A program made the position numbers and the translations under genes. Source: Aedoeadaptatus urinae (GTDB lineage: Bacteria > Bacillota > Clostridia > Tissierellales > Peptoniphilaceae). Taken from it: DNA of 64,000 nucleotides. Positions 23,819 to 36,911 of this stretch are shown one piece after another. The DNA lies in assembly GCF_900155585.1 (NCBI RefSeq), contig NZ_LT707418.1, positions 685,115 through 749,114 on the forward strand, read 5' to 3'. How positions within the stretch are numbered: position 1 is the stretch's first letter; every line of letters begins with the position of its first letter. The notes under the pieces were generated by a model. The model was not told the DNA's origin. It worked only from the letters and a program-made list of their open reading frames with translations, and made no database searches.

Positions 23819-24826
23819 TTAACCGAGGATGAATCCGTGTTTTACAGGGTCAGTTTCGTCGATAACGAAGTGGTTGAAGCCGGTAATCCATGCAGAACCG
23901 GAAACTTGCGGAATGACAGCGTCGAGGTCGCCAACCTTGGCTTCGTCGATAACTTTGCCGTAGAACAAGGTTCCTAAGATGGATTCATAAACGAATTCTT
24001 CACCCTTCTTTAATTCACCGCGAGCGTATAAGGTAGCCATTTTAGCACTGGTACCGGTTCCGCAGGGCGAGCGGTCGACTTGACCTTGACCAAAGACGAC
24101 GCAGTTTCTGAGGGTTGCGCCCGGTGTGTCGGTTTCGGACCACCATTCGATTAAGTCGACGGTATGGATATGGGGCAGTTCGGGGTGTTGAACTTTGATT
24201 TCTTTGTTGATGATGTCGCGAAGTTGCATACCAACCTTGTTAAGAACTTGAGCATTTTCCGGTTCGATGGTAACGCCGATTTGGTCGACTTTTACGATAG
24301 CAAAGAAGCTGCCGCCGAAGGAAATGTCAAATTTGATCTTGCCGTAACCGGGAAGTTCAACTTCTTGGTTTTCTTTGTATAAGAAAGCAGGAACGTTGGT
24401 GAATGTAACTTTTCTAGCGTGACCGTCTTCAACTTCGACGTCGCCGCGAATGATACCTGCCGGTGCTTCTTGAACAACGTGGGTAACGGGTTCTACTGCA
24501 GGAATGATGCCGGTTTCAACTGCTACGGACATAGCGCCGATGGTGCCGTGACCGCACATGTTTAAGTATCCGCCGCCGTCCATAAAGATAATACCGTAGT
24601 CAGCTTCGTCGTTGGTGGGTTGTGTAAGGATAGAGCCGAACATTTCGTTGTGTCCACGAGGTTCGAGCATCAGGGCCGTACGCAAATAGTCGAGGTGTTC
24701 TTCCAAATATTCTTTCTTTTCAGGCATGCTTTTTCCCGGAATATTAGGAATGCCACCGATAACGACACGTGTAGCTTCGCCTGCAGTATGAGAGTCTACG
24801 GCGTGGATACTTCTAGAGAATTTCAT
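23819..24826 (-). CDS. prdF: proline racemase
   Basis: A 335-residue cofactor-free proline racemase. Both catalytic cysteines are present: Cys91 in NMCGHGT and Cys255 in DRSPCGTGTS, which separates it from hydroxyproline epimerase relatives with other residues. It turns L-proline to D-proline, the substrate of the reductase encoded next to it. ATG follows TAAGGAGGAATAATA. It begins 76 bases after the 3' end of tRNA-Sec with no terminator in between, so it may be on the same transcript. Length is normal for the family. Confidence 0.95.
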   Translation of the reverse strand: MKFSRSIHAVDSHTAGEATRVVIGGIPNIPGKSMPEKKEYLEEHLDYLRTALMLEPRGHNEMFGSILTQPTNDEADYGIIFMDGGGYLNMCGHGTIGAMSVAVETGIIPAVEPVTHVVQEAPAGIIRGDVEVEDGHARKVTFTNVPAFLYKENQEVELPGYGKIKFDISFGGSFFAIVKVDQIGVTIEPENAQVLNKVGMQLRDIINKEIKVQHPELPHIHTVDLIEWWSETDTPGATLRNCVVFGQGQVDRSPCGTGTSAKMATLYARGELKKGEEFVYESILGTLFYGKVIDEAKVGDLDAVIPQVSGSAWITGFNHFVIDETDPVKHGFILG

Positions 24827-24902
24827 TATTATTCCTCCTTACAATTGTAAAAACATTTTCCCAACACATCCAAAGGTCCCTTCGCCATTAAAATACAATT
24901 AA

Positions 24903-25000
24903 TGGCGGGAACATGTGGGAATCGAACCCACCTAAGAAGCTTCGAACTTCTCACAACGGTTTTGAAGACCGCGAGGCACACCAGACACCTAGCTGCTCCC
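24903..25000 (-). tRNA. selC: tRNA-Sec (TCA)
   Basis: A 98-base selenocysteine tRNA with encoded CCA. The anticodon stem-loop CGGTCTTCAAAACCG gives TCA, the acceptor starts GGGAGCA and ends TGTTCCC-G-CCA, and there is a long variable arm GAGAAGTTCGAAGCTTCT. The long arm and the UCA anticodon are diagnostic. It lies inside the prd cluster, between prdD and prdF. Confidence 0.95.
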
Positions 25001-25016
25001 AAAGGATTTGGAATAA

Positions 25017-25103
25017 ATAAGGATAAAAAACCGAGGTTTTCCCCTGTAGGTATCATACCATATGTCCGACAAAGAATCTACAAAGACCTCGGCTTTCCTT
25101 ATT
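25017..25103 (-). terminator. long-loop terminator after prdD, with likely tRNA-Sec promoter in the loop
   Basis: Minus-strand arms ACCGAGG-type CCGAGGT (25092-25086) and ACCTCGG (25037-25031) are followed by T6. The outer AATAAGG/CCTTATT also pair. The 48-base loop holds GGTATGATACC and -10-like TATGGT/TATGAT hexamers, so transcription of tRNA-Sec may start inside it. Confidence 0.55.
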
Positions 25104-25112
25104 GTTAAATTT

Positions 25113-25856
25113 TTATACCAGCGCGCGAATGGCACCGTCTCGATATTCGTTCGGCGTCAGATAGACAGGCATGTTGTACATGTCGATGACCGAAAGCCCG
25201 TCGAAGCCGGATGGCTCCGAGGGGAAGATCATATTGTCGTACATGGCGCCTTGGCCGGCCACTTGTTTCAAGAGGACGACCTTCAGTCCGTCTTTGCGTT
25301 CAATATCATAGTAATCGTGTGATTCGTCGGCTTTGCCGCCGTTTAAGTCCTTCATCATCTTGCGAATTTTCGCAATATAGTCCTCGGCCACTTGGAAGGC
25401 TGCATTCGCAAGTTCGCGGCTAAAGGGTTGGCCGCCTTTGACCAGGACGTCGATGTGAATGATGAAGTCTTCTTCTCCGGGCGTTCCGCGTTTACCGAGG
25501 TAGAGCTGTTCAGCGAGATTACCTTCGCTGGATCCGAATTCCCCGATTTGGCGACCGTCTTCGTCGACACCGGTAAGTAGTACATAGCAACCGGTAAAGG
25601 TGTGCGTGACACCTTCACCGAGCCTGCCAAGTACTTTTGTAGACATAGGGATAATATCCATGATACTGTTCACTTCCACATCGTGTTCGTGTGGTTTGAG
25701 GATGGACACCGTAGATTTTACGACTAAGTCGCTTTGATTGTGGGTCTCCTGGGGTACGGTCAGTAAGCCCTGAACAAAGGACGGCTTTTCACCGAACTGA
25801 ACATCGGTTGCGTGAAATGCACGGATGACCAAACGTCGTTTTTGAATATCTTCCAT
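25113..25856 (-). CDS. prdD: proline reductase cluster protein PrdD
   Basis: A 247-residue protein homologous to the middle part of PrdA: GEFGSSEG, a KGG/PFSRELANAAFQVAEDY segment and KQVAGQGAMYDNMIFPSEP correspond to PrdA residues about 275-385. It lacks the PrdA N-terminal module and the cysteine where the pyruvoyl group forms. In known prd operons PrdD accompanies PrdA/PrdB; a role in maturation of the PrdA proprotein has been suggested, not proven. It is 19 bases after prdB with GGGGGATAGT before the ATG. Confidence 0.88.
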   Translation of the reverse strand: MEDIQKRRLVIRAFHATDVQFGEKPSFVQGLLTVPQETHNQSDLVVKSTVSILKPHEHDVEVNSIMDIIPMSTKVLGRLGEGVTHTFTGCYVLLTGVDEDGRQIGEFGSSEGNLAEQLYLGKRGTPGEEDFIIHIDVLVKGGQPFSRELANAAFQVAEDYIAKIRKMMKDLNGGKADESHDYYDIERKDGLKVVLLKQVAGQGAMYDNMIFPSEPSGFDGLSVIDMYNMPVYLTPNEYRDGAIRALV

Positions 25857-25875
25857 ACTATCCCCCTACTGGATT

Positions 25876-26601
25876 TTATACGTGAGCGATATATTCGAAG
25901 GGCAGGGGAACAATCTTACCTGCGCTAGGAATAGCTACGAGTTGTTCTAAGGTTGCCTTCAAAATGCCGTGTTGCATTTCGACGTTGTGGGGTTCACCTG
26001 CGTTGGCGCCCATCGGTACACGAGGAGCTACGGCACGCGGGGATCCGTTTTGACGGACAACCGGAGGTAATGCTGCGATCAAGATGGTAGGAATACCCGA
26101 TTCCTCTATCGCACGTTGAACAATAGTCGCGGTGCGGTGACAGGTACCTCAGCCACCGGTGAGGATAACAGCATCTACATCCTCATCTTTAAGTTTTTGA
26201 GCAATTTCCGGGCCGGTTCTGTGGGTAAAGGCGTCTTGGTCGCCGCCGCCGCCCATGAAACCGTAGTGGAAGGGTGCTACTTCTTTAATGAATCCTTCAT
26301 CGGCAAGTTCTCTCAAACGGTCGATGGGGAACATACAGTTAATGTCTTTGTTGACGTCCGAGTTGTCGTAACCACCGTGGGATACCATTAACTCATCGTC
26401 TTGTGCGTCGCCGGGGATTTCACGGTAAGTCGTGTCACCTGCCAAGTTAAAACGCTCTTGGGTTTTCAAGTGAATGCCCGCAGCACTTGCAATAGCGACT
26501 CGCATATCTTTCAATTCCTTGGTCACCGGGGTCCATACGGGATCCGGGGTAATAGGAACGAAGATTTCAGATTGCAAGCCTTTTACGGTTGTAAGCTTCA
26601 T
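25876..26601 (-). CDS. prdB: D-proline reductase selenoprotein subunit PrdB
   Basis: The selenium-containing catalytic subunit, 241 residues when the in-frame TGA at 26151-26149 is read as selenocysteine (residue 151). The context is LTGG-Sec-GTCHR, the motif of PrdB/GrdB-type reductases, and the frame continues with ALPPVVRQNGSPRAVAPRVP to a TAA at 25876. D-proline is reduced to 5-aminovalerate at the Sec and the pyruvoyl group of PrdA. ATG 26601 follows AAGGAGGAAATAGA. Standard gene callers will cut it to 150 residues. tRNA-Sec, selA and selB in this window supply the machinery. Confidence 0.95.
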
Positions 26602-26623
26602 TCTATTTCCTCCTTAAAGAAAC

Positions 26624-26887
26624 TCAGTCCAGAAGACCTCTTTCTCGTCTAAGCTCGATATTTCGTTTATATCCTTCATTAACCTCAGGGTTAATGACTT
26701 CGGGAATGGTCATCATTAAACCGACTTCCATTCCTTCTTGTAGCGGATCGTCGGAAATGATATAGCGAAGGGGTACCTTCAACTGACCCATCCGGCCTTT
26801 GAAATCGATCGTAACCGCGACGTCGGTCAAGTGAACAATAATGCCTTCTAAATACGTTTCCGTAGAAATATACCTAAGCTTTTCCAT
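26624..26887 (-). CDS. small prd-operon protein (CBO2463/CBO2479-like)
   Basis: An 87-residue protein without signal or membrane helix. A beta-rich central part (GIIVHLTDVAVTIDFKGRMG, LKVPLRYIIS) resembles the small conserved protein found between prdA and prdB in other proline-reducing Firmicutes, annotated as the CBO2463/CBO2479 domain. The C-terminus is charged (YKRNIELRRERGLLD). It sits three bases after prdA and 22 before prdB with no other gene between, so it is probably made in step with the reductase. Its role is not known. Confidence 0.8.
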   Translation of the reverse strand: MEKLRYISTETYLEGIIVHLTDVAVTIDFKGRMGQLKVPLRYIISDDPLQEGMEVGLMMTIPEVINPEVNEGYKRNIELRRERGLLD

Positions 26888-26890
26888 TGA

Positions 26891-28771
26891 TTATTTGTCT
26901 TCTCCTGCTTCGTCCTTTTCGTAGATTTCACGACGCTTCTTGCTCATCTTCAAGACGGTTTCGTTATCTAACAGTTCAAATTCACGGCCGGTTTGTTCCT
27001 TAATTAAGTCAACGTTGTTGAGCTTAACGTTCGGGTTCCATTTACGTTCGGCGGCTTTAATTTCTACGCCTGCCATTTGGTTCTTCAACATAGCCAATGC
27101 GCGGATTGCGTCTTCTTGACAGAGGGTGTTGTTTTCGAGAATTTCGTTTTCAATACCTTGTCTGGACTTGTTGTTGTCGACCATGGCTACCATGTATTGG
27201 TTACCGGTTACCAGTGCACCTTGAACGGCACAGAAGGACATACCTACGACGGGGATGCCGCGCATACCGACTTGTTCGTGGTGAGAACCGAAGTCGATGT
27301 GGTTGTTACCGAAACCTTCGGTGGTGATGATAACACCGTCGGGGTTGATGGCTTCAACGGTCATACCGAGACGTTTGGATACATAGAATTTTTCGGTGTT
27401 TGCTTGCGGCGAGCCGACGAGCAATACGCCTACGACGTCGATTTCGTCATCAGCCAATGCTTCGAGTACCAAGGGTTCTCTGAAGTAGTGTCTGGACATT
27501 TCCTTGGAAGCCGGTCCGATACAGGTCAATGCGTGAATACCGCCGTCGAGTACTTCGAGGGGAGACAGCATGATCGGAAGGTTACCTAAGTCGACGTTGG
27601 GGTGTCCGCCTAACCAACCACAGGGTTCTACGGGCAATAACAAGTTGTCGTGCATTGCGCCTTGGCCCATGATTTCCTTAATAAGGAGAACTTTTTTACG
27701 GCCTTCTTTTCTGACGTGAGAGAATTCTTCGGAGCGAACGGGAGTTGCTTCGTATTCTTTCAGGGCGTTACGGATTTCGTCGGTCATGTGGTCAGCTGCG
27801 TGGTGAGCGGCCATGGGTCCACGACGTTCCATGTTGGTCTTGGCTTGAATGGTAACTTGGCACTTAATGAAGGTTTCGCCTTTGTCCGGGCTGCCGGGAC
27901 GGTTGAACATGATGTTTCTGTCCATTTCGCCTTCGGAAGAACCGAATTCGCCGATTTGTACGCCACCTTCGTCGGTACCGGTCAGCATCAAAATAACGCC
28001 GTCGAGAACGCGAGTAACGCCGGAACCTAATTCGCCTTCTTCTTTGGTAGCAATAGGTTGTACGTCCATGATGGTTTCGGAATATTCATCGTAACGGTCG
28101 GGCGTGATGATGTCGATCGTAAAGTCTTTTACCAATTCTTGAGAATCGATAACTTCTTGTTCGATGCCTTCGCGAATGTAGAGGGTGGTTCCGTCAAACT
28201 TGGTTTCGGGACCTCTTTCTACCTTTTCGATTTTGTAATAGTCTTTTCTTAAGTGACGAATTTCGTGGGTTTCACCTTCGACAAATTCGTCAGCTGCTAA
28301 GGGTGCGCCTGCTGCTACGCCTTGAGCAACGCCTGCTGCTTGAGCGGGAGCTTGGCCTGCGCCTGCGATAACGGGGAAGCTGATTTCGATGTTTTCGCCC
28401 TTGGCGATCTTGATCGAAGCCATGCCACCGACGGACGGTGCTGCTTGTGCAACGGGTGCAGCTGCTGCTGCGGGTGCTGCTGCTTCAGCTTCTGCTTCTT
28501 CTGCTTCTTCTCCTTGAACCGGAAGATCTTCTACGAGATCCTTGGTCAAGGGAGTAAGGGAATCAACGGTTTCTTTTAATTTGCCACCGAGTACTTCGCC
28601 AATGGTCAAAGTTTCGTCGGTGATTTCCAAAAGACCGGTGTCTTCCAGGTCGGCAAAGATAGCGGGGTCTTCCAAAATGGAAGGCTCGATAACCTCACCG
28701 GCTTCGAATCGGCAACAGGTTACAGCAGGATCATTTTTGTGCTGCATTGCCGTTTCTTTGGTAATAGACAT
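26891..28771 (-). CDS. prdA: D-proline reductase proprotein PrdA
   Basis: A 626-residue proprotein. Residues 1-135 form an N-terminal module (MSITKETAMQHK...CCRFEAG...IKIAKGENIEISFPV), followed by an Ala/Pro/Glu linker. The rest is the GrdE/PrdA reductase body, with EFGSSEG near 276 and the cleavage site ALTCIGPA. Family knowledge says the chain is cut before that Cys (here Cys417), which becomes the pyruvoyl group that binds D-proline as a Schiff base. ATG 28771 was chosen for its AAAGGAGGAAGAAT site; a frame to 28816 runs through the leader hairpin. First gene of prdA-small-prdB-prdD. Confidence 0.95.
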   Translation of the reverse strand: MSITKETAMQHKNDPAVTCCRFEAGEVIEPSILEDPAIFADLEDTGLLEITDETLTIGEVLGGKLKETVDSLTPLTKDLVEDLPVQGEEAEEAEAEAAAPAAAAAPVAQAAPSVGGMASIKIAKGENIEISFPVIAGAGQAPAQAAGVAQGVAAGAPLAADEFVEGETHEIRHLRKDYYKIEKVERGPETKFDGTTLYIREGIEQEVIDSQELVKDFTIDIITPDRYDEYSETIMDVQPIATKEEGELGSGVTRVLDGVILMLTGTDEGGVQIGEFGSSEGEMDRNIMFNRPGSPDKGETFIKCQVTIQAKTNMERRGPMAAHHAADHMTDEIRNALKEYEATPVRSEEFSHVRKEGRKKVLLIKEIMGQGAMHDNLLLPVEPCGWLGGHPNVDLGNLPIMLSPLEVLDGGIHALTCIGPASKEMSRHYFREPLVLEALADDEIDVVGVLLVGSPQANTEKFYVSKRLGMTVEAINPDGVIITTEGFGNNHIDFGSHHEQVGMRGIPVVGMSFCAVQGALVTGNQYMVAMVDNNKSRQGIENEILENNTLCQEDAIRALAMLKNQMAGVEIKAAERKWNPNVKLNNVDLIKEQTGREFELLDNETVLKMSKKRREIYEKDEAGEDK

Positions 28772-28792
28772 ATTCTTCCTCCTTTGTGAACT

Positions 28793-28832
28793 GTTCGAGA
28801 TGCAAGAGTCTTGCATCTATGTCGGATCGAAC
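28793..28832 (-). promoter_or_regulatory. leader hairpin just upstream of the prdA ribosome site
   Basis: A perfect 10-1-10 inverted repeat AGATGCAAGA/TCTTGCATCT (28798-28818), enclosed by GTTCG/CGAAC, about ten bases before the Shine-Dalgarno sequence. There is no T run, so it is not a terminator. Confidence 0.6.
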
Positions 28833-28895
28833 AATTTCCATCCTAAACGTGTGTGTTTCAAAACCATATTCATGGTAACCCATCGTTCTGACACA

Positions 28896-28923
28896 ATTAT
28901 ATCACAATTCGAATGGAGGTCAA
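28896..28923 (-). promoter_or_regulatory. prdA promoter
   Basis: Minus strand TTGACC (28923-28918), 16-base spacer, TATAAT (28901-28896). On the plus strand CACAATT occurs twice, at 28892-28898 and 28903-28909, flanking the -10 box with an 11-base period. Confidence 0.82.
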
Positions 28924-28972
28924 ATTGCTGAAATCACCGTAAATCAGCCTGAAAATTGCGATTTCGACGAAT

Positions 28973-29011
28973 AAAAAAACAGGAAAGGCAGAGGGTGCTT
29001 TTTCCTGTTTT
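28973..29011 (-). terminator. terminator after the PrdA N-terminal paralogue
   Basis: Read on the minus strand: AACAGGAAA ... TTTCCTGTT followed by T5-T7. Confidence 0.8.
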
Positions 29012-29199
29012 TTCCTGATTAATTCTTTAACACGCCTGTCCATCGACTTTGTTTAAAATTTATTTTCCCAAAAAATCCTATATTCGATAGTTCTTCGGCG
29101 TTTATAGACTTCGTCAATAATGCGCCCGATTTATCTATAGCCGTTTCTATAGGTAAATAAATCAGCTCACAAATTTGATCTATTGACTCTGATTTGGAA
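29012..29199 (-). other. non-coding gap with a 60-codon open stretch, no gene called
   Basis: The 188 bases between the terminator and the stop of the PrdA N-terminal paralogue are AT-rich and have no promoter. On the minus strand one frame is open from inside the previous gene to a TAA near 29030 and reads a protein-like end (IGFFGKINFKQSRWTGVLKN), but it has no start codon or ribosome site. It may be a gene remnant. Confidence 0.35.
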
Positions 29200-29619
29200 T
29201 CAACCGTAGACCGGGAAGGAAATTTCGATGTTTTCGCCCTTGGCGATCTTTAATGTGGCGTATCCGGTAACCACGGGTTGTGCGCCTGCGGGAACCGGGG
29301 TGATTTCCATAGCTTCTTGTGCACCGTCTTCATCGACCACGACCGCTTCCTCTGCAGCGCCTGCTTCAGGCAGGTCTTCCAAGAGATCCTTGGTCAAGGG
29401 CGTAAGGGAGTCCACGGTTTCTTTTAATTTTGCGCCGAGGACTTCGCCGATGGTTAAGGTTTCGTCGGTGATTTCCAAGAGACCGGAATCTTCCAGGTCG
29501 GGGAAGATATTGGGATCCTCTAAGATAGATGCTTCGACCAGTGCACCGGCTTCGAAGCGGCAGCAGGTTACTGCCGGATCATCCTTGTGTTGCATTGCAG
29601 TTTCTTGAGTAATAGACAT
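29200..29619 (-). CDS. stand-alone copy of the PrdA N-terminal domain
   Basis: A 139-residue protein that matches PrdA residues 1-135 almost along its length: MSIT-ETAMQHK-DPAVTCC at the start, LLEITDETLTIGEVLG in the middle and LKIAKGENIEISFPV at the end, where it stops instead of running into the linker. The twin cysteines at 19-20 are kept. It has its own near-consensus promoter, an AAAGGAGGCAACT ribosome site, a leader hairpin and a terminator, so it is expressed on its own rather than being debris. Its role could be as a scaffold, inhibitor or electron-transfer partner within the D-proline reductase complex; this is inference. Confidence 0.85.
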   Translation of the reverse strand: MSITQETAMQHKDDPAVTCCRFEAGALVEASILEDPNIFPDLEDSGLLEITDETLTIGEVLGAKLKETVDSLTPLTKDLLEDLPEAGAAEEAVVVDEDGAQEAMEITPVPAGAQPVVTGYATLKIAKGENIEISFPVYG

Positions 29620-29643
29620 AGTTGCCTCCTTTAATAATTTCAT

Positions 29644-29670
29644 CGGGCCGACATGGCCCGTTCTTGAACG
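29644..29670 (-). promoter_or_regulatory. leader hairpins upstream of the PrdA N-terminal paralogue
   Basis: CGGGCC-ATGTC-GGCCCG (29644-29660), with an overlapping CGTTC-TT-GAACG (29659-29670), lie about 13 bases upstream of the ribosome site. There is no T run. Confidence 0.5.
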
Positions 29671-29709
29671 GTTCCGACCGGAAACGGAATTTTTCCCGCC
29701 GTCGGATTG

Positions 29710-29738
29710 ATTATAGCAACATTAAAATAGGAGGTCAA
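29710..29738 (-). promoter_or_regulatory. promoter of the PrdA N-terminal paralogue
   Basis: Minus strand TTGACC (29738-29733), 17-base spacer, TATAAT (29715-29710). It shares ATTTGACCTCC with the prdA promoter and TTGCTATAATCA with the prdC promoter. Confidence 0.85.
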
Positions 29739-29915
29739 ATGACGATTTGTCGAAAATATCTGCTTAAATACTTTATTCAAGCCTTATAATCTTCAGGAAA
29801 ATCAATTTTATTTTCATTGCGTTTTCCCTAAAAAGCTTTCTCCCCGTGTTGTGCTCTTCCTCTCGGTTTTTTTCTTTTCCCCTAAGCCGAAAGGCATTAT
29901 TTATAGGTGTCATTC

Positions 29916-29949
29916 CGTTATTTGAAATAACGATAAGGTACTATAAAAT
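29916..29949 (+). promoter_or_regulatory. LysR-type operator overlapping the promoter of the LysR-selA-selB operon
   Basis: A perfect 8-1-8 inverted repeat CGTTATTTGAAATAACG (29916-29932) fits the T-N11-A pattern bound by LysR proteins. TTGAAA inside it and TAAAAT (29944-29949) are 16 bases apart. The rest of the 29620-30060 gap holds nothing else I recognise. Confidence 0.6.
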
Positions 29950-30060
29950 AAAATCTGTGATAAAATAGCTTTATAGATAAATTATGAGACTTGCTGCAGT
30001 CTTCTATTCTATCATTCAAGGCCGGCTAGGGTACGGCAATAAGACGACCGGGAGGAATGT

Positions 30061-30966
30061 ATGGATTTTAAACAGATCAACGCTTTTGTCAATGTGGTGA
30101 AATATAAGAGCTTTTCGCGGGCGGCGGATGCGGCCTTTTTGACGCAACCGACGATTAGCGCCCACGTCATCAGCTTGGAAAAGGAACTGGGCGTGATTCT
30201 AATCAATCGCAATCGCGGCGAGGCCATTTTGACGGAAGAGGGCAAAAAGCTTTACAGCTACGCCGTGGACATGATTAACACGCGGGACGAGGCCCTGCGC
30301 GAATTAAAAAAGGAAGTGCGGGAGGATGTAGCCGGCGTCTTGTCCATGCAGGTCTCTTCCGTTATCGGCGAGTCTTGGCTCCCCGGTCATTTGATCGGCT
30401 TTCGCGAGGAGCATCCCTTTGTGCGCTTTTTTATCGATCAATCGGACAGCGACATCGTGGAAAACAATTTGCTGGCGGGCCAAGGAGATTTGGGCTTTTT
30501 AGGGAAAAAACCCAACGCCGCCTTGGGCTCGGAGAAGGTGCTCACGGATCCCTTGGTCTTAATCTGTCCGAAAAACGAAAAATACACGTCCATGTATAAA
30601 ATGGATAAGTCCATCAGTATTAAGGAAATCATCGGCGAAAATTTCATTTGGCGTGAAGAAGGCTCCGCCACCCGGCGCCAATTCGAAAAGGAAGTGGAAA
30701 AGCTGGGCTACTCCTCCTACCAATGGGGCATGAGTGCCCTGCTCACCCACATCGAATCCATTAAAAAGTGCGTGGAGAACGGCTTGGGCATTTCCGTCAT
30801 TTCAAAAATCTCCGCCTACGAAAATTACGAGGCGAGAAATTACTTAATTTTTAAGATTAAAGAGTTGCACATGACGCGAGATTTTTATATGGTATGGAAT
30901 AAGAACACAGCCCTGTCCCTTCCGGCACAGGAGTTCAAACAATACATCCATGAAAAGGCGGAGTAA
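30061..30966 (+). CDS. LysR-family transcription regulator, first gene of the selAB operon
   Basis: A 301-residue LysR regulator. The N-terminal winged helix-turn-helix (residues 1-60: KSFSRAADAAFLTQPTISAH) is followed by a two-lobed effector-binding domain, with SGSATRRQFE-like and GLGISVISKISA segments. ATG follows GGGAGGAATGT. It ends three bases before selA, so regulator and Sec synthesis genes share a transcript. The upstream inverted repeat suggests autoregulation. It may respond to proline, selenium or sulfur compounds and could also control the divergent prd genes, but the effector is unknown. Confidence 0.9.
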   Translation: MDFKQINAFVNVVKYKSFSRAADAAFLTQPTISAHVISLEKELGVILINRNRGEAILTEEGKKLYSYAVDMINTRDEALRELKKEVREDVAGVLSMQVSSVIGESWLPGHLIGFREEHPFVRFFIDQSDSDIVENNLLAGQGDLGFLGKKPNAALGSEKVLTDPLVLICPKNEKYTSMYKMDKSISIKEIIGENFIWREEGSATRRQFEKEVEKLGYSSYQWGMSALLTHIESIKKCVENGLGISVISKISAYENYEARNYLIFKIKELHMTRDFYMVWNKNTALSLPAQEFKQYIHEKAE

Positions 30967-30969
30967 TCC

Positions 30970-32367
30970 ATGAAATTAACCATGAAAGAAAAATCCACGT
31001 TCCTCCGGCAATTGCCTCAGGTCAACGACGTGCTTGAAAGCTTAAAGGCCTCGGAAAAAGATCCCGTGGCCTTAAAAGATGCGGTGCGGCTTGCCCTGGA
31101 GGGCATTCGCTCGGACATTAAGGCGGCAGAAGACGAGGCTGCCTGCGCCGCATTGGCGTCTATGGAAGAAATCCATCGACGGATTGACAATCAAATTGAG
31201 CGGCAAATGACGCCGAAGTTGCGCCCGGTCATTAACGCAACCGGCGTCATTTTGCATACGAACCTGGGCCGCTCCCTTTTGAGCCGCCGTGCCATCGATA
31301 ATGTGGATAAGCTCACGGCCTCCTACGCCAATTTGGAATACGACATCGACGCCGGCAAGCGGGGCAGTCGCCACAGCATTTTACAGGAGCTGGTGAAGGA
31401 CATTACCGGCGCGGAGGATGCCATGGTGGTAAACAACAACGCCTCGGCGGTGCTCCTCGCCATCAGCGCCTTAACCGACGGCGGCGGCGTGGTAGTCAGC
31501 CGAGGCGAGCTGGTGGAAATCGGCGGCTCATTCCGCGTGCCTGAAATCATCGAGCTTTCCGGCGCGCGTTTGATGGAAATCGGTACCACCAACAAGGTTC
31601 ACGCCTACGACTACGAGCGGGCGGCCGATGCGGAAGACGCTCAGGTGATCTTAAAGGTCCACCGCAGCAATTTTAAAATCGTGGGCTTTACGGAAGAGCC
31701 GAGCTTGGAAGAGCTTCGGGACATTGCCCACAAGCGGGGCCTGCCCTTTATCTACGATTTGGGCAGCGGCCTTATGCACGAATTGAATGACGTGGGCATC
31801 GACGAGCCCACGGTGGCAGACGCCTTAAAGGCCGGGGCGGATCTGGTGCTTTTCAGCGGCGACAAGCTTTTAGGCGGACCCCAGGCGGGGATCGCCATCG
31901 GCAAGAAGGAATACATCGCCCGCATGAAGCGCCATCCCCTGGCGCGGGTGGTGCGCATGGACAAAATGAGCTTTGCCGCATTGGAAGCTACCATGGAAAG
32001 CTACCGCAATCCCATGACGGCGCGAAAAGAAATTCCCGTCCTCGCCATGATTACCAAGCCCGTGAAGGCGATAAAAGCCGAAGCCGCTTCCCTGGCCGAG
32101 GAATTAAAGGCCATGGGCTATGACACGAAAGTGGATGCCGACCGCAGCCAAATCGGCGGCGGCTCCTGCCCCGGCGAATACCTGGACACCTTCGTCACCT
32201 CCCTCGCCCATCCCGAAAAGAGCGCGGCGGAAATCGAAGAGGCCCTTCGCCATTGGGAGATCCCCATTATCGCCCGCATCGCCAAAGACCGCGTGCTACT
32301 CGACCCCCGCACCTTGCAGGAGGGAGACCGGGCGCGTATCTTGGACGCCTTTTCACAGCTGAGGTGA
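30970..32367 (+). CDS. selA: L-seryl-tRNA(Sec) selenium transferase
   Basis: A 465-residue PLP enzyme that turns Ser-tRNA(Sec) into Sec-tRNA(Sec) using selenophosphate. The N-terminal helical domain (about 1-70) is followed by INATGVILHTNLGRSLLS near 83-100, the PLP fold, and FSGDKLLGGPQAG with Lys299 as the PLP-binding residue. Length is normal for the bacterial enzyme. The gene starts three bases after the LysR gene and is followed four bases later by selB. The selenophosphate synthetase gene (selD) is not in the window. Confidence 0.96.
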   Translation: MKLTMKEKSTFLRQLPQVNDVLESLKASEKDPVALKDAVRLALEGIRSDIKAAEDEAACAALASMEEIHRRIDNQIERQMTPKLRPVINATGVILHTNLGRSLLSRRAIDNVDKLTASYANLEYDIDAGKRGSRHSILQELVKDITGAEDAMVVNNNASAVLLAISALTDGGGVVVSRGELVEIGGSFRVPEIIELSGARLMEIGTTNKVHAYDYERAADAEDAQVILKVHRSNFKIVGFTEEPSLEELRDIAHKRGLPFIYDLGSGLMHELNDVGIDEPTVADALKAGADLVLFSGDKLLGGPQAGIAIGKKEYIARMKRHPLARVVRMDKMSFAALEATMESYRNPMTARKEIPVLAMITKPVKAIKAEAASLAEELKAMGYDTKVDADRSQIGGGSCPGEYLDTFVTSLAHPEKSAAEIEEALRHWEIPIIARIAKDRVLLDPRTLQEGDRARILDAFSQLR

Positions 32368-35056: not shown

Positions 35057-35530
35057 TTACTTGCGACCTTCTTTTCGAATTTTTAATTTCAAGAGGGCCA
35101 CGGCTTTTCGAGCGTCCATTTCGTCGACATTGTTTTCGCCGACGACTTCCGTCTCGATGCCTTGTTCGGATTTGTTAATATCCACCAGCGTGTTCATGTA
35201 TTTGTTTTTAACGACAAACGACGCTTGTTTACCTTGGAATGTGACGCCGACAGTGGGAATGCCCCGCTTACCCAGTTCTTCCCAGGTATTGGCGAAGTCC
35301 ACGTGGGAGTTGCCCCAACCGTCTGCGGAGAGGATGACGCCGTCGGTGCGCATGCCTTCAATCCAAGAAGCGGCGCGGGTGCCGACGAAGTACTTGTCTT
35401 CGTTATCTTGGGGCGTGCCTACGATGATGACGCCTTGAAAGTCGATGTCAGTGTCTTGACCAAGAACATCCACCATCGGATCTCTGAAGTGGTGTAAACT
35501 AGTCTCTTTTGTCGAAGGACCTATACCCAT
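35057..35530 (-). CDS. prdE: proline reductase cluster protein PrdE
   Basis: A 157-residue homologue of the C-terminal part of PrdA (the region after the pyruvoyl site): FQGVIIVGTPQDNEDKYFVG corresponds to PrdA VVGVLLVGSPQANTEKFYVS, and DGVILSADGWGNSHVDFANT to DGVIITTEGFGNNHIDFGSH. Together, PrdD and PrdE resemble PrdA split in two without the N-terminal module and active Cys. ATG follows GGGAGGGGACT. It is the second gene after prdC and ends before a terminator. A complex-forming or maturation role is likely but unproven. Confidence 0.88.
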   Translation of the reverse strand: MGIGPSTKETSLHHFRDPMVDVLGQDTDIDFQGVIIVGTPQDNEDKYFVGTRAASWIEGMRTDGVILSADGWGNSHVDFANTWEELGKRGIPTVGVTFQGKQASFVVKNKYMNTLVDINKSEQGIETEVVGENNVDEMDARKAVALLKLKIRKEGRK

Positions 35531-35558: not shown

Positions 35559-36881
35559 TTAAAGAACGTGTTCGTCGAAGTAACGGATCAACGGACGGCC
35601 CATGGTTCTCAGGGGCGTGTCGGTTGCGTGGTGTACTTCAAGACCGGCCTTCGGTGCCGATGCCATAACCGTGTTGGTGCAGTCGGAGCAGTGACCGATG
35701 AGGACGGATTCACAGCCTTGTTTCTTAAATGCCAAAATGTGTTCCGCTTGACCCGGGCAGTTTCCGGGGTCTTTGCACTTGTAGGTGCCGTTCTTTTGTT
35801 CGACGGCATTCTTGCATACGCGGTAATCGATGGGTTCTTGGCCTAAGGATTGCGCGATTTCATACAATCTTTCCTTGCAGGGACCGCAGGCACATTGAAT
35901 GATGCCCATGGGGCCTTTTGCCTTTTCAAAGGGTTCCGTTGCGGTCACGCCGCCGTATAATTTGTAGATAGCGTTGTTTTCTTTGTTGCGACGGCCGGTG
36001 TAGGGTCCGCCGATTAAGATTTCGCCGATGGGCTCATCCAAGCCGCCGAAATCTTCGATAATGTCGTCGATCATCATGCCGTAGGGAATGTGAATAATTT
36101 CCTTGTCCCCTTTGTTCTTGAATTTCTTGAACTTGCCGGCGATGGTGACGTATTTATCGATACAGGGCTTTAAGTCGTTGACGGCGTGAGCGATAGCGCA
36201 GAGGGTTTCTACGTTAAAGACCACGGCGTTGGCTTCTGCGGGGAGTCCTCCCGGGGGAATCAAGACATTGATGGTATCGCGAACCAGCGCACGTTCTTCC
36301 CCGACGGGGTAGATGTTGCGAAGGGGTAAGATGCGAATGTCTTTAATGCCCTTTTCCTTTAAGATGCCGTTAATATGTTTAATTTCATCTTTGTGTTTTA
36401 ACTTAATACCGATAATCCCCTTGTCGGCACCGGTTGCTTCCATGGCGATACGCATACCGTCTAAGAGAGCGTCGGTTTCTTCCATGATTTGGGTCATGTT
36501 GTGTTCGAGGATCGGTTCGCATTCAGCTGCGTTACAAAGAATGAAGCCGCCCTTGTGTAAATCCGTACCTAATTTAACGTAAGCGGGGAAGCCTGCGCCG
36601 CCCATGCCTAAAATGCCAGCGCGACGAACGGTTTCGGCAGCGTCCTTGCCCGGTTCCAATTTGACGTAATCGTCGGATGTATCGGTTTGTTCGACGATGA
36701 TGTAATCTTCTTGAACGTCGACAACCTTGCCGGTGACGGATGTGTGTAGCGGTACACTTAATTTTTCCGGTTCGTAATCGGCAATTACTTGGCCGCGCTT
36801 AACTTCGTCACCTTTTTTAACGCAGGTGACGGGGGGAGCGCCGACGCCTTGTTTCAGAAAATACTTGAACTGTCTTCCCAT
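35559..36881 (-). CDS. prdC: proline reductase-associated electron transfer protein PrdC (RnfC-like)
   Basis: A 440-residue protein related to RnfC/NqrA-type electron carriers. It has a lipoyl-like N-terminal part (KKGDEVKRGQVIADYEP), the flavin/NADH-like segment ILGMGGAGFPAYVKLGTD, a SLBB region and a cysteine-rich C-terminus (CACGPCKE, CKDPGNCPGQ, GHCSDCTN). It is thought to carry electrons from NADH or ferredoxin systems to the D-proline reductase. The open frame has no in-frame TGA, so unlike some clostridial PrdC it is a Cys form. ATG 36881 follows AAGGAGTTGTAGAA; upstream in-frame ATGs have no site. Confidence 0.92.
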   Translation of the reverse strand: MGRQFKYFLKQGVGAPPVTCVKKGDEVKRGQVIADYEPEKLSVPLHTSVTGKVVDVQEDYIIVEQTDTSDDYVKLEPGKDAAETVRRAGILGMGGAGFPAYVKLGTDLHKGGFILCNAAECEPILEHNMTQIMEETDALLDGMRIAMEATGADKGIIGIKLKHKDEIKHINGILKEKGIKDIRILPLRNIYPVGEERALVRDTINVLIPPGGLPAEANAVVFNVETLCAIAHAVNDLKPCIDKYVTIAGKFKKFKNKGDKEIIHIPYGMMIDDIIEDFGGLDEPIGEILIGGPYTGRRNKENNAIYKLYGGVTATEPFEKAKGPMGIIQCACGPCKERLYEIAQSLGQEPIDYRVCKNAVEQKNGTYKCKDPGNCPGQAEHILAFKKQGCESVLIGHCSDCTNTVMASAPKAGLEVHHATDTPLRTMGRPLIRYFDEHVL

Positions 36882-36911
36882 TTCTACAACTCCTTCATAC
36901 ATACTGAGTCC

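Follow-up and report, generated by a model that had tools for sequence, protein, structure and literature searches.

A free-standing copy of the PrdA N-terminal arm recurs beside prdA and may act in trans on D-proline reductase

D-Proline reductase is a main electron sink of amino-acid-fermenting clostridia, gut species included. In the window—that is, the whole stretch of 64,000 nucleotides of Aedoeadaptatus urinae DNA that was analysed—the gene for its PrdA component has a short neighbor encoding a likeness of the PrdA N-terminal region, here called the arm, and nothing else of the enzyme, which raises the question of why a piece of a known enzyme should also be kept as a protein of its own. 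The association with D-proline reductase is a genomic one, the free gene lying next to prdA. The reading preferred here, to which we give a probability of roughly 0.6 on comparative sequence evidence, is that the free arm would be a non-covalent SAF-arm subunit of the reductase, docked through its C-terminal hairpin and working in trans. No published description of a free PrdA N-terminal part was found by a full-text literature search covering few subscription papers, in agreement with a first-pass annotation of this DNA, which had known of no function for such an isolated module. The free arm is a recurring accessory part of a known enzyme, without a description in the literature searched. 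The features of the locus are collected in Table 1.

Table 1. Position and basis of the features of the free-arm gene and the prd cluster (numbering of the window)
Feature	Position	Strand	Basis
Free-standing PrdA-arm gene, 139 aa, ATG start	29200..29619	-	ORF; TIGR04480 positions 1-132; orthologues
Likely SAF-type domain, residues 1-84 (high model confidence up to residue ~80)	29368..29619	-	AlphaFold model; Foldseek and VIA-align matches
Vicinal Cys19-Cys20, then Arg21	29560..29565	-	invariant in 22/22 arm rows and 65/65 PrdA-type rows; kept in 21/24 free copies
Variable acidic linker, about residues 85-116	29272..29367	-	pLDDT <50 at residues 86-106; variable in alignment
C-terminal beta-hairpin ATLKIAKGENIEISFPV, proposed docking element	29206..29271	-	predicted strands 117-125 and 131-138, low confidence
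Ribosome-binding site AAAGGAGG of free gene, clear	29625..29632	-	sequence
Promoter TTGACC-17-TATAAT, extended -10	29710..29738	-	core kept in 4/4 species
Intrinsic terminator of free gene, hairpin + T7	28973..29012	-	-16.6 kcal/mol; hairpins at the corresponding place in 3 relatives
prdA, 626 aa, pyruvoyl-forming Cys417	26891..28771	-	TIGR04480 941.9 bits; model
prdA promoter, same type as that of the free gene (TTGACC-16-TATAAT)	28896..28923	-	
CBO2463-domain gene, between prdA and prdB	26624..26887	-	NF041553
prdB, in-frame UGA (selenocysteine)	25876..26601	-	translation
prdD, free paralogue of PrdA middle part	25113..25856	-	TIGR04482 329.1 bits; alignment
Presumed prdF-type proline racemase gene	23819..24826	-	ORF with homologues in prd loci
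PrdE-like, free paralogue of PrdA C-terminal part	35057..35530	-	TIGR04480 positions 415-564; alignment
prdC, electron-transfer protein	35559..36896	-	TIGR04481 511.3 bits

The resemblance of the product to the PrdA N-terminus, which the first-pass annotation had reported, was confirmed by several comparisons. Local alignment with residues 1–134 of the neighboring PrdA gave a score of 476 (BLOSUM62), with 75% identity across query residues 1–138 and 73 of 84 positions identical in the folded part (residues 1–84). The NCBIfam PrdA profile TIGR04480, 587 positions long, matched the free protein with an E-value of 3.4e-39, indicative of a likeness beyond chance; the score of 135 bits does not reach the curated cut-off of 700 bits. 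All marks of the PrdA N-terminal domain—the CCR, EDP, and V-[LI]-G motifs, T76, and the C-terminal hairpin—were found to be present, and 18 columns are invariant in an alignment of 22 arm sequences. The SAF domain, linker, and hairpin are thus those of the PrdA N-terminal region, but unlike PrdA the free protein has its own gene, stops at the hairpin before the PrdA core, and lacks the pyruvoyl-forming Cys. The genome to which the window belongs (1.82 Mb, four contigs) contains two copies of the arm in total, namely the free gene and prdA.

The expression signals that had been listed for the gene were upheld, with the exception of the leader hairpin. The promoter-like element shows 11 of 12 consensus matches and TG ahead of the −10; TTTGACC...TTGnTATAAT was found 5′ of the free gene in all four Aedoeadaptatus species having it, and TTTGACC...TGnTATAAT 5′ of prdA in 5/5 species of the genus. 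Hairpins at the position of the terminator were calculated at −16.6, −12.2, and −12.8 kcal/mol in three other species; a simple terminator scanner listed no terminator for the free gene on the minus strand, probably because of the long loop. The leader hairpin is not above chance, with a z-score of −1.33 and 19 of 200 shuffles folding equally well, nor is it a conserved element, the relatives giving z-scores of +0.18, −1.67, and −2.18 and the leader not being alignable across the genus.

A free copy was detected in four of the eight Aedoeadaptatus genomes; A. ivorii (G007) has prdA without a free copy, and the remaining three gave no match. One of the three other species with the gene is recorded as Peptoniphilus nemausensis, and the nearest relative found is A. 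pacaensis, in which the free protein is 96% identical. The dN/dS ratios between the free orthologues of the four species are 0.03–0.17, some dS values being near saturation, and 0.02–0.10 over the SAF part, similar to the ratios for PrdA in five species (0.105–0.151). Judged from these substitution rates and from the orthologues in three sister species, the free gene is under purifying selection, neither strain-specific nor decaying, and together with its own signals this bears out the earlier statement that it is a maintained gene. The four Aedoeadaptatus free copies group in a single clade (90/93 in the first tree), suggesting a duplication older than these species, unless the grouping is an effect of conversion.

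Stand-alone copies do recur beside prdA well outside the genus. In all, 24 different free copies belonging to five families were read, and 21 of them are followed immediately by prdA. This does not hold for G587, in which prdC stands between; for G198, with no core beside the free copy; or for a Mogibacterium MAG (L090), in which the copy is at a contig end and no prd gene was found in the DNA examined. A search of the order matched 53 of 249 genomes, of which seven have a single arm in free form (G000, G001, G003, G005, G080, G084, G095) and G198 additionally has a free tandem arm (L128), which was counted as free though a tandem of two SAF domains. A sample of the class (21 of 391 genomes matching) yielded four new free cases (G411, G450, G536, G587). 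In the family of G450, 35 of 194 genomes matched and six were verified as free (G450, G697, G733, G622, G720, G676); in that of G536, 47 of 71 matched and eight were verified (G536, G801, G803, G799, G827, G833, G834, G411). Named loci besides the Mogibacterium MAG include those of Clostridioides difficile CD10-165 (L119), Asaccharospora irregularis (L122), Peptostreptococcus anaerobius (L069), and P. russellii (L102), all four of which repeat genomes of the family search. Dropped from the count were L112 (prdA split by a run of N), L114 (at the edge of a contig), L129/G237 (frameshifts in prdA), and repeats of one gene under several locus ids. Two further genomes were left uncounted: G744, in which a 229-aa frame lies at a contig edge, and G717, which has one frame of 156 aa and one of 157 aa.

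In G198 (L128:7519-8169), the free protein consists of two tandem SAF domains and the hairpin and follows prdC; no PrdA core adjoins it, and an ordinary prdA is located elsewhere in the genome.

The history of these copies was followed in a cleaned SAF tree of 113 rows and 87 columns, in which many forks are unresolved and from which L114, L129, and the second SAF domains that had stood under the free label in the first tree were left out, as were L067, L081, L136, L141, and L142, which had long end branches there. The free label requires 15 changes on this tree, and supported branches force a minimum of 10, each a gain, loss, or conversion of the free state, indicating that the arrangement arises repeatedly or stays PrdA-like by conversion. 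Most free copies are placed close to PrdA arms from the same lineage, as in G676, which groups with its own PrdA at 100/95. Many prd genomes have no free copy—A. ivorii, for instance, and five of the eight genomes of genus g266, the other three having the gene—and the free arm is therefore not generally required. Genus g266 is taken as Clostridioides because the free gene of its member G801 is also that of the C. difficile record L119.

What travels in these copies appears to be a defined unit. SAF domain, linker, and hairpin are kept in all 24, one of which (G198) has two SAF domains, and in all 24 the chain ends within 14 residues of the hairpin core. The hairpin motif is likewise present in every copy, in one (G450) with a relaxed last position; in the first motif set, the pattern had matched 15 of 16, with G450 added after this relaxation. 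A truncated duplicate could end anywhere, and the shared end after the hairpin was therefore counted in favor of the trans-acting arm subunit. Some lineages have instead two SAF domains within one PrdA of ~660–724 aa (N1-N2-hairpin-core): two matches in one frame of this length were found in 13 of the 53 matching genomes of the order search, and the second SAF has no cysteines in every case read. These tandem PrdAs have one recognisable hairpin, placed after the second SAF, the pattern having found none in L176 and L177, and a tandem PrdA occurs together with a free arm in G622, G720, G733, and G676. That each chain carries one hairpin, however many SAF domains it contains, suggests a role of the hairpin in docking each arm chain to the complex; it counts against this that the confidence of the hairpin prediction is low (pLDDT ~48–60). 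As an addition to the first-pass annotation, the portable unit would thus take in the C-terminal hairpin, with SAF duplication inside PrdA as an apparently common alternative.

The fold of the arm, a further addition, was approached by structure prediction. An AlphaFold model of the free protein built on the 22-sequence alignment (overall pLDDT 68.9, pTM 0.50) is confident for residues 1–80, in blocks of pLDDT 81–87, and of low confidence beyond. The first five Foldseek matches include type III antifreeze protein, FlgA, and the antifreeze-like domain of human N-acetylneuraminic acid phosphate synthase, with E-values of 0.04–0.08 and probabilities of 0.94–1.00, none having an E-value of 0.001 or better; for 4ur6_B, the E-value is 0.043, the probability 1.00, and the TM score 0.74 by target length. 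The VIA Z-scores were 7.6 for 4ur6_B (rmsd 2.3 over 59), 7.3 for FlgA 3tee, and 6.7 for 3g8r, and such values, being below 8, may reflect merely a common arrangement. The Pfam SAF profile PF08666 gave no match to the free protein of the window at an E-value of 10 or better; it matched 9 of 22 relatives at E-values up to 10 (best 5.8e-4), and its cut-off of 21 bits was passed by two PrdA frames (22.3 and 21.9 bits) in a scan of 60 genomes. A weak match in the expected register was returned by hhalign for the arm against the SAF alignment (probability 4.8, E 0.0084), and the SAF profile scored the arms weakly above shuffled sequences, with overlapping distributions (medians of 3.1 and −1.3 bits, top scores of 10.4 and 6.9). 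Based on the model, arm residues 1–84 are likely to adopt a SAF fold.

The known SAF/antifreeze-like (beta-clip) domains, such as those of the NeuB/PseI C-terminus, FlgA, CpaB/RcpC, and type III antifreeze protein (PF08666), would share this fold with arm residues 13–85; the arm differs from them in having a longer insert after the first half and in being attached to a pyruvoyl reductase. In NeuB, the SAF domain serves as a substrate lid. The swinging lipoyl and biotinyl arms of 2-oxoacid dehydrogenases and carboxylases, in which a small domain is carried by a flexible and often Ala/Pro-rich linker, sometimes in tandem and sometimes as a separate protein, are an analogy only, the PrdA arm differing in that it appears to be SAF-type, without a known cofactor or lysine. 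Biotin_lipoyl matched none of the 22 members, and the lipoyl/biotinyl fold was absent among the fold matches shown, an absence that does not by itself decide against such a fold.

A model of full-length PrdA from a 65-sequence alignment has the SAF domain at residues 1–84, with blocks of ten reaching 94, the hairpin at 117–133 (~60), and the core, mostly above 80, from residue ~167. The stretches 87–116 and 135–162, on either side of the hairpin, are predicted at pLDDT below 50, and this separation of a confident SAF domain from the core points to a module that would be able to work as a separate chain. No relative of PrdA was found in the PDB by sequence at E-values up to 1, and no named Pfam domain in its first 173 residues. 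A viral fold library gave no meaningful match. A Foldseek search of the PDB with full-length PrdA returned weak, mixed matches (best E 0.01) and was set aside.

The Cys-Cys-Arg triplet sets the arms apart from one another in a telling manner. It is present in 139 of 140 PrdA frames of a redundant set, with G450 as the exception, and in all frames of a later set except G450 and G697. In these two genomes, PrdA retains solely a Cys-less SAF domain, and the only CCR-type SAF of the operon is the free protein; in G450, the cleavage-site Cys of PrdA and prdB with its UGA are intact. Judging from the sequences, PrdA of these two species probably relies on a separate arm. Both also encode a second PrdA-like protein of 597–599 aa, and since the members of this family that were read carry CCR, a CCR-type SAF is probably not absent from the cells; with this caveat, the two species provide the strongest hint of a free arm acting in trans on PrdA. 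The converse occurs in genus g24, in which three fast-evolving free arms (L125–L127) lack both cysteines and their own PrdA keeps them. Retention of the cysteines in PrdA arms, together with their loss from the g24 free copies and from second SAF domains, makes it seem that one CCR arm per enzyme is required and that an extra arm can do without them. A thiol role is therefore not general for the extra arm.

Under the preferred reading, that of a trans-acting arm subunit, the free protein would join the PrdA/PrdB complex non-covalently, with the hairpin as docking element, and would supply an extra CCR-type SAF module—the sole one in G450 and G697—in parallel to the second tandem SAF inside PrdA of other lineages. 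At the active site, it is a candidate for relaying thiol electrons from PrdC to the selenocysteine of PrdB, for acting as a substrate lid, or for assembly. The cysteines being invariant in the PrdA arm yet dispensable in the extra arm, a thiol role for the arm is given somewhat less than even odds. The reading of the free arm as a diffusible thiol carrier, whose Cys-Cys pair would take electrons from PrdC and pass them to the selenocysteine of PrdB and of which PrdA would be the tethered version, overlaps partly with that of a trans-acting subunit. It could draw on the invariance of the triplet, on the free CCR-type SAF of G450 and G697, on the low predicted order of the linkers, and on the dithiol/selenol exchange between PrdC and PrdB proposed for C. 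sticklandii in the accessible text of PMC3091704. However, extra arms appear to work without cysteines in second SAF domains and in genus g24, and the carrier reading is considered rather unlikely. To our knowledge, vicinal cysteines seldom form a disulfide, which also counts against it. That the PrdA arm would be a new type of protein-borne thiol carrier, built tethered, tandem, or free, with the free form having taken over in species such as G450 and G697, is a speculative extension and unlikely.

The first-pass annotation had proposed a scaffold, a decoy regulating complex assembly, or a separate redox subunit, and of these the scaffold and redox proposals still stand and the pure decoy is disfavored. 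A decoy or dosage regulator would tune activity by competing for PrdC or PrdB with the PrdA arm; the separate transcription unit in Aedoeadaptatus, with its prdA-like promoter, would suit it, but the free copy of G450 and G697 is itself the CCR-type arm and not a competitor of one. Joint control is suggested, moreover, by two Clostridioides loci. For 'CD3244/prdA' of C. difficile 630, a sigma-54 promoter has been published (accessible text of PMC7438776), as has a CcpA site at −293 of CD3244 (accessible text of PMC3510511). The promoter (exact) and the CcpA site (one mismatch) were located just 5′ of the free gene in these two loci, within L138:6978-7285 and L119:4244-4547, and in L138 the distance from the end of the CcpA site to the start codon of the free gene is 292 nt, against the published −293. 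Thus, either strain 630 has no free gene or CD3244 begins at it, and, the free gene of both loci lying directly 3′ of the published prdA promoter, operon descriptions may have missed it or used strains without it. A decoy is accordingly regarded as improbable. Another possibility is that the free arm, PrdD, and PrdE form a three-piece, pyruvoyl-less pseudo-PrdA stabilising the complex, a reading that overlaps with the others. PrdD ends by alignment where the PrdA cleavage site starts and the PrdE-like protein begins at that site, with Met-Gly in place of PrdA Thr416-Cys417, so that the three free proteins together span most of PrdA; a protein-stabilising role has also been suggested for PrdD and PrdE in the accessible text of PMC3091704. 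A PrdE match outside the prdA frame was found in 12 of 12 genomes checked, in three g24 genomes solely within longer frames of 418–422 aa; PrdD/PrdE does not discriminate as an explanation of the free-arm distribution. Many prd loci, including that of A. ivorii, have PrdD and PrdE without a free arm, and free arms mostly resemble the PrdA of their own lineage rather than forming a separate old one; a pseudo-PrdA is unlikely. Finally, free copies mostly adjoin prdA and resemble it most, as functionless by-products of frequent tandem duplication of the prdA 5′ end would, but purifying selection, similar end points, and retention of the hairpin and start signals largely refute this account, which is scarcely credible.

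PrdD and PrdE are, according to the accessible text of PMC3091704, likewise separately encoded pieces of PrdA in the prd cluster. The free arm extends this older observation to the N-terminal part, the piece that PrdD and PrdE lack, and differs from them in its scattered occurrence, gain, loss, or conversion having taken place repeatedly. With it, the PrdA N-terminal region acquires a likely fold and a boundary, and also a genetic experiment provided by nature, the arm of two species (G450 and G697) apparently working in trans as a natural case of trans-complementation. The role of the arm could thereby be tested with a 15-kDa protein rather than the whole complex, a PrdA without a CCR arm serving as the negative control.

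The cluster around the free gene comprises prdA, the CBO2463-domain gene, prdB, prdD, and prdF, with the PrdE-like gene and prdC at greater distance (Table 1); it is adjoined by selA- and selB-like genes. A selenocysteine tRNA is encoded at 24907-25000 on the minus strand, between prdD and prdF, and was the sole Rfam match over 24800-31000. In three loci of other genomes (L130, L131, and L132, from G005, G007, and G003), a second PrdA-like operon lies ~9–12 kb from prdA. It contains a PrdA-like frame of 589–610 aa with a CCR SAF and a PrdB-like frame that has no UGA; a third frame, of 418–432 aa and with a partial PrdE match, is perhaps a PrdD–PrdE fusion. With the free arm as query, no second PrdA-like copy was found in the genome of the window. 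The prdA leader (28772-28895, minus strand) matched no Rfam family; here and in L048, L049, and L050 it contains the invariant block GGATGGAAATTGTTCGATCCGA, with leader z-scores of −2.0 to −2.5, and a hairpin ahead of the ribosome site whose sequence covaries across species.
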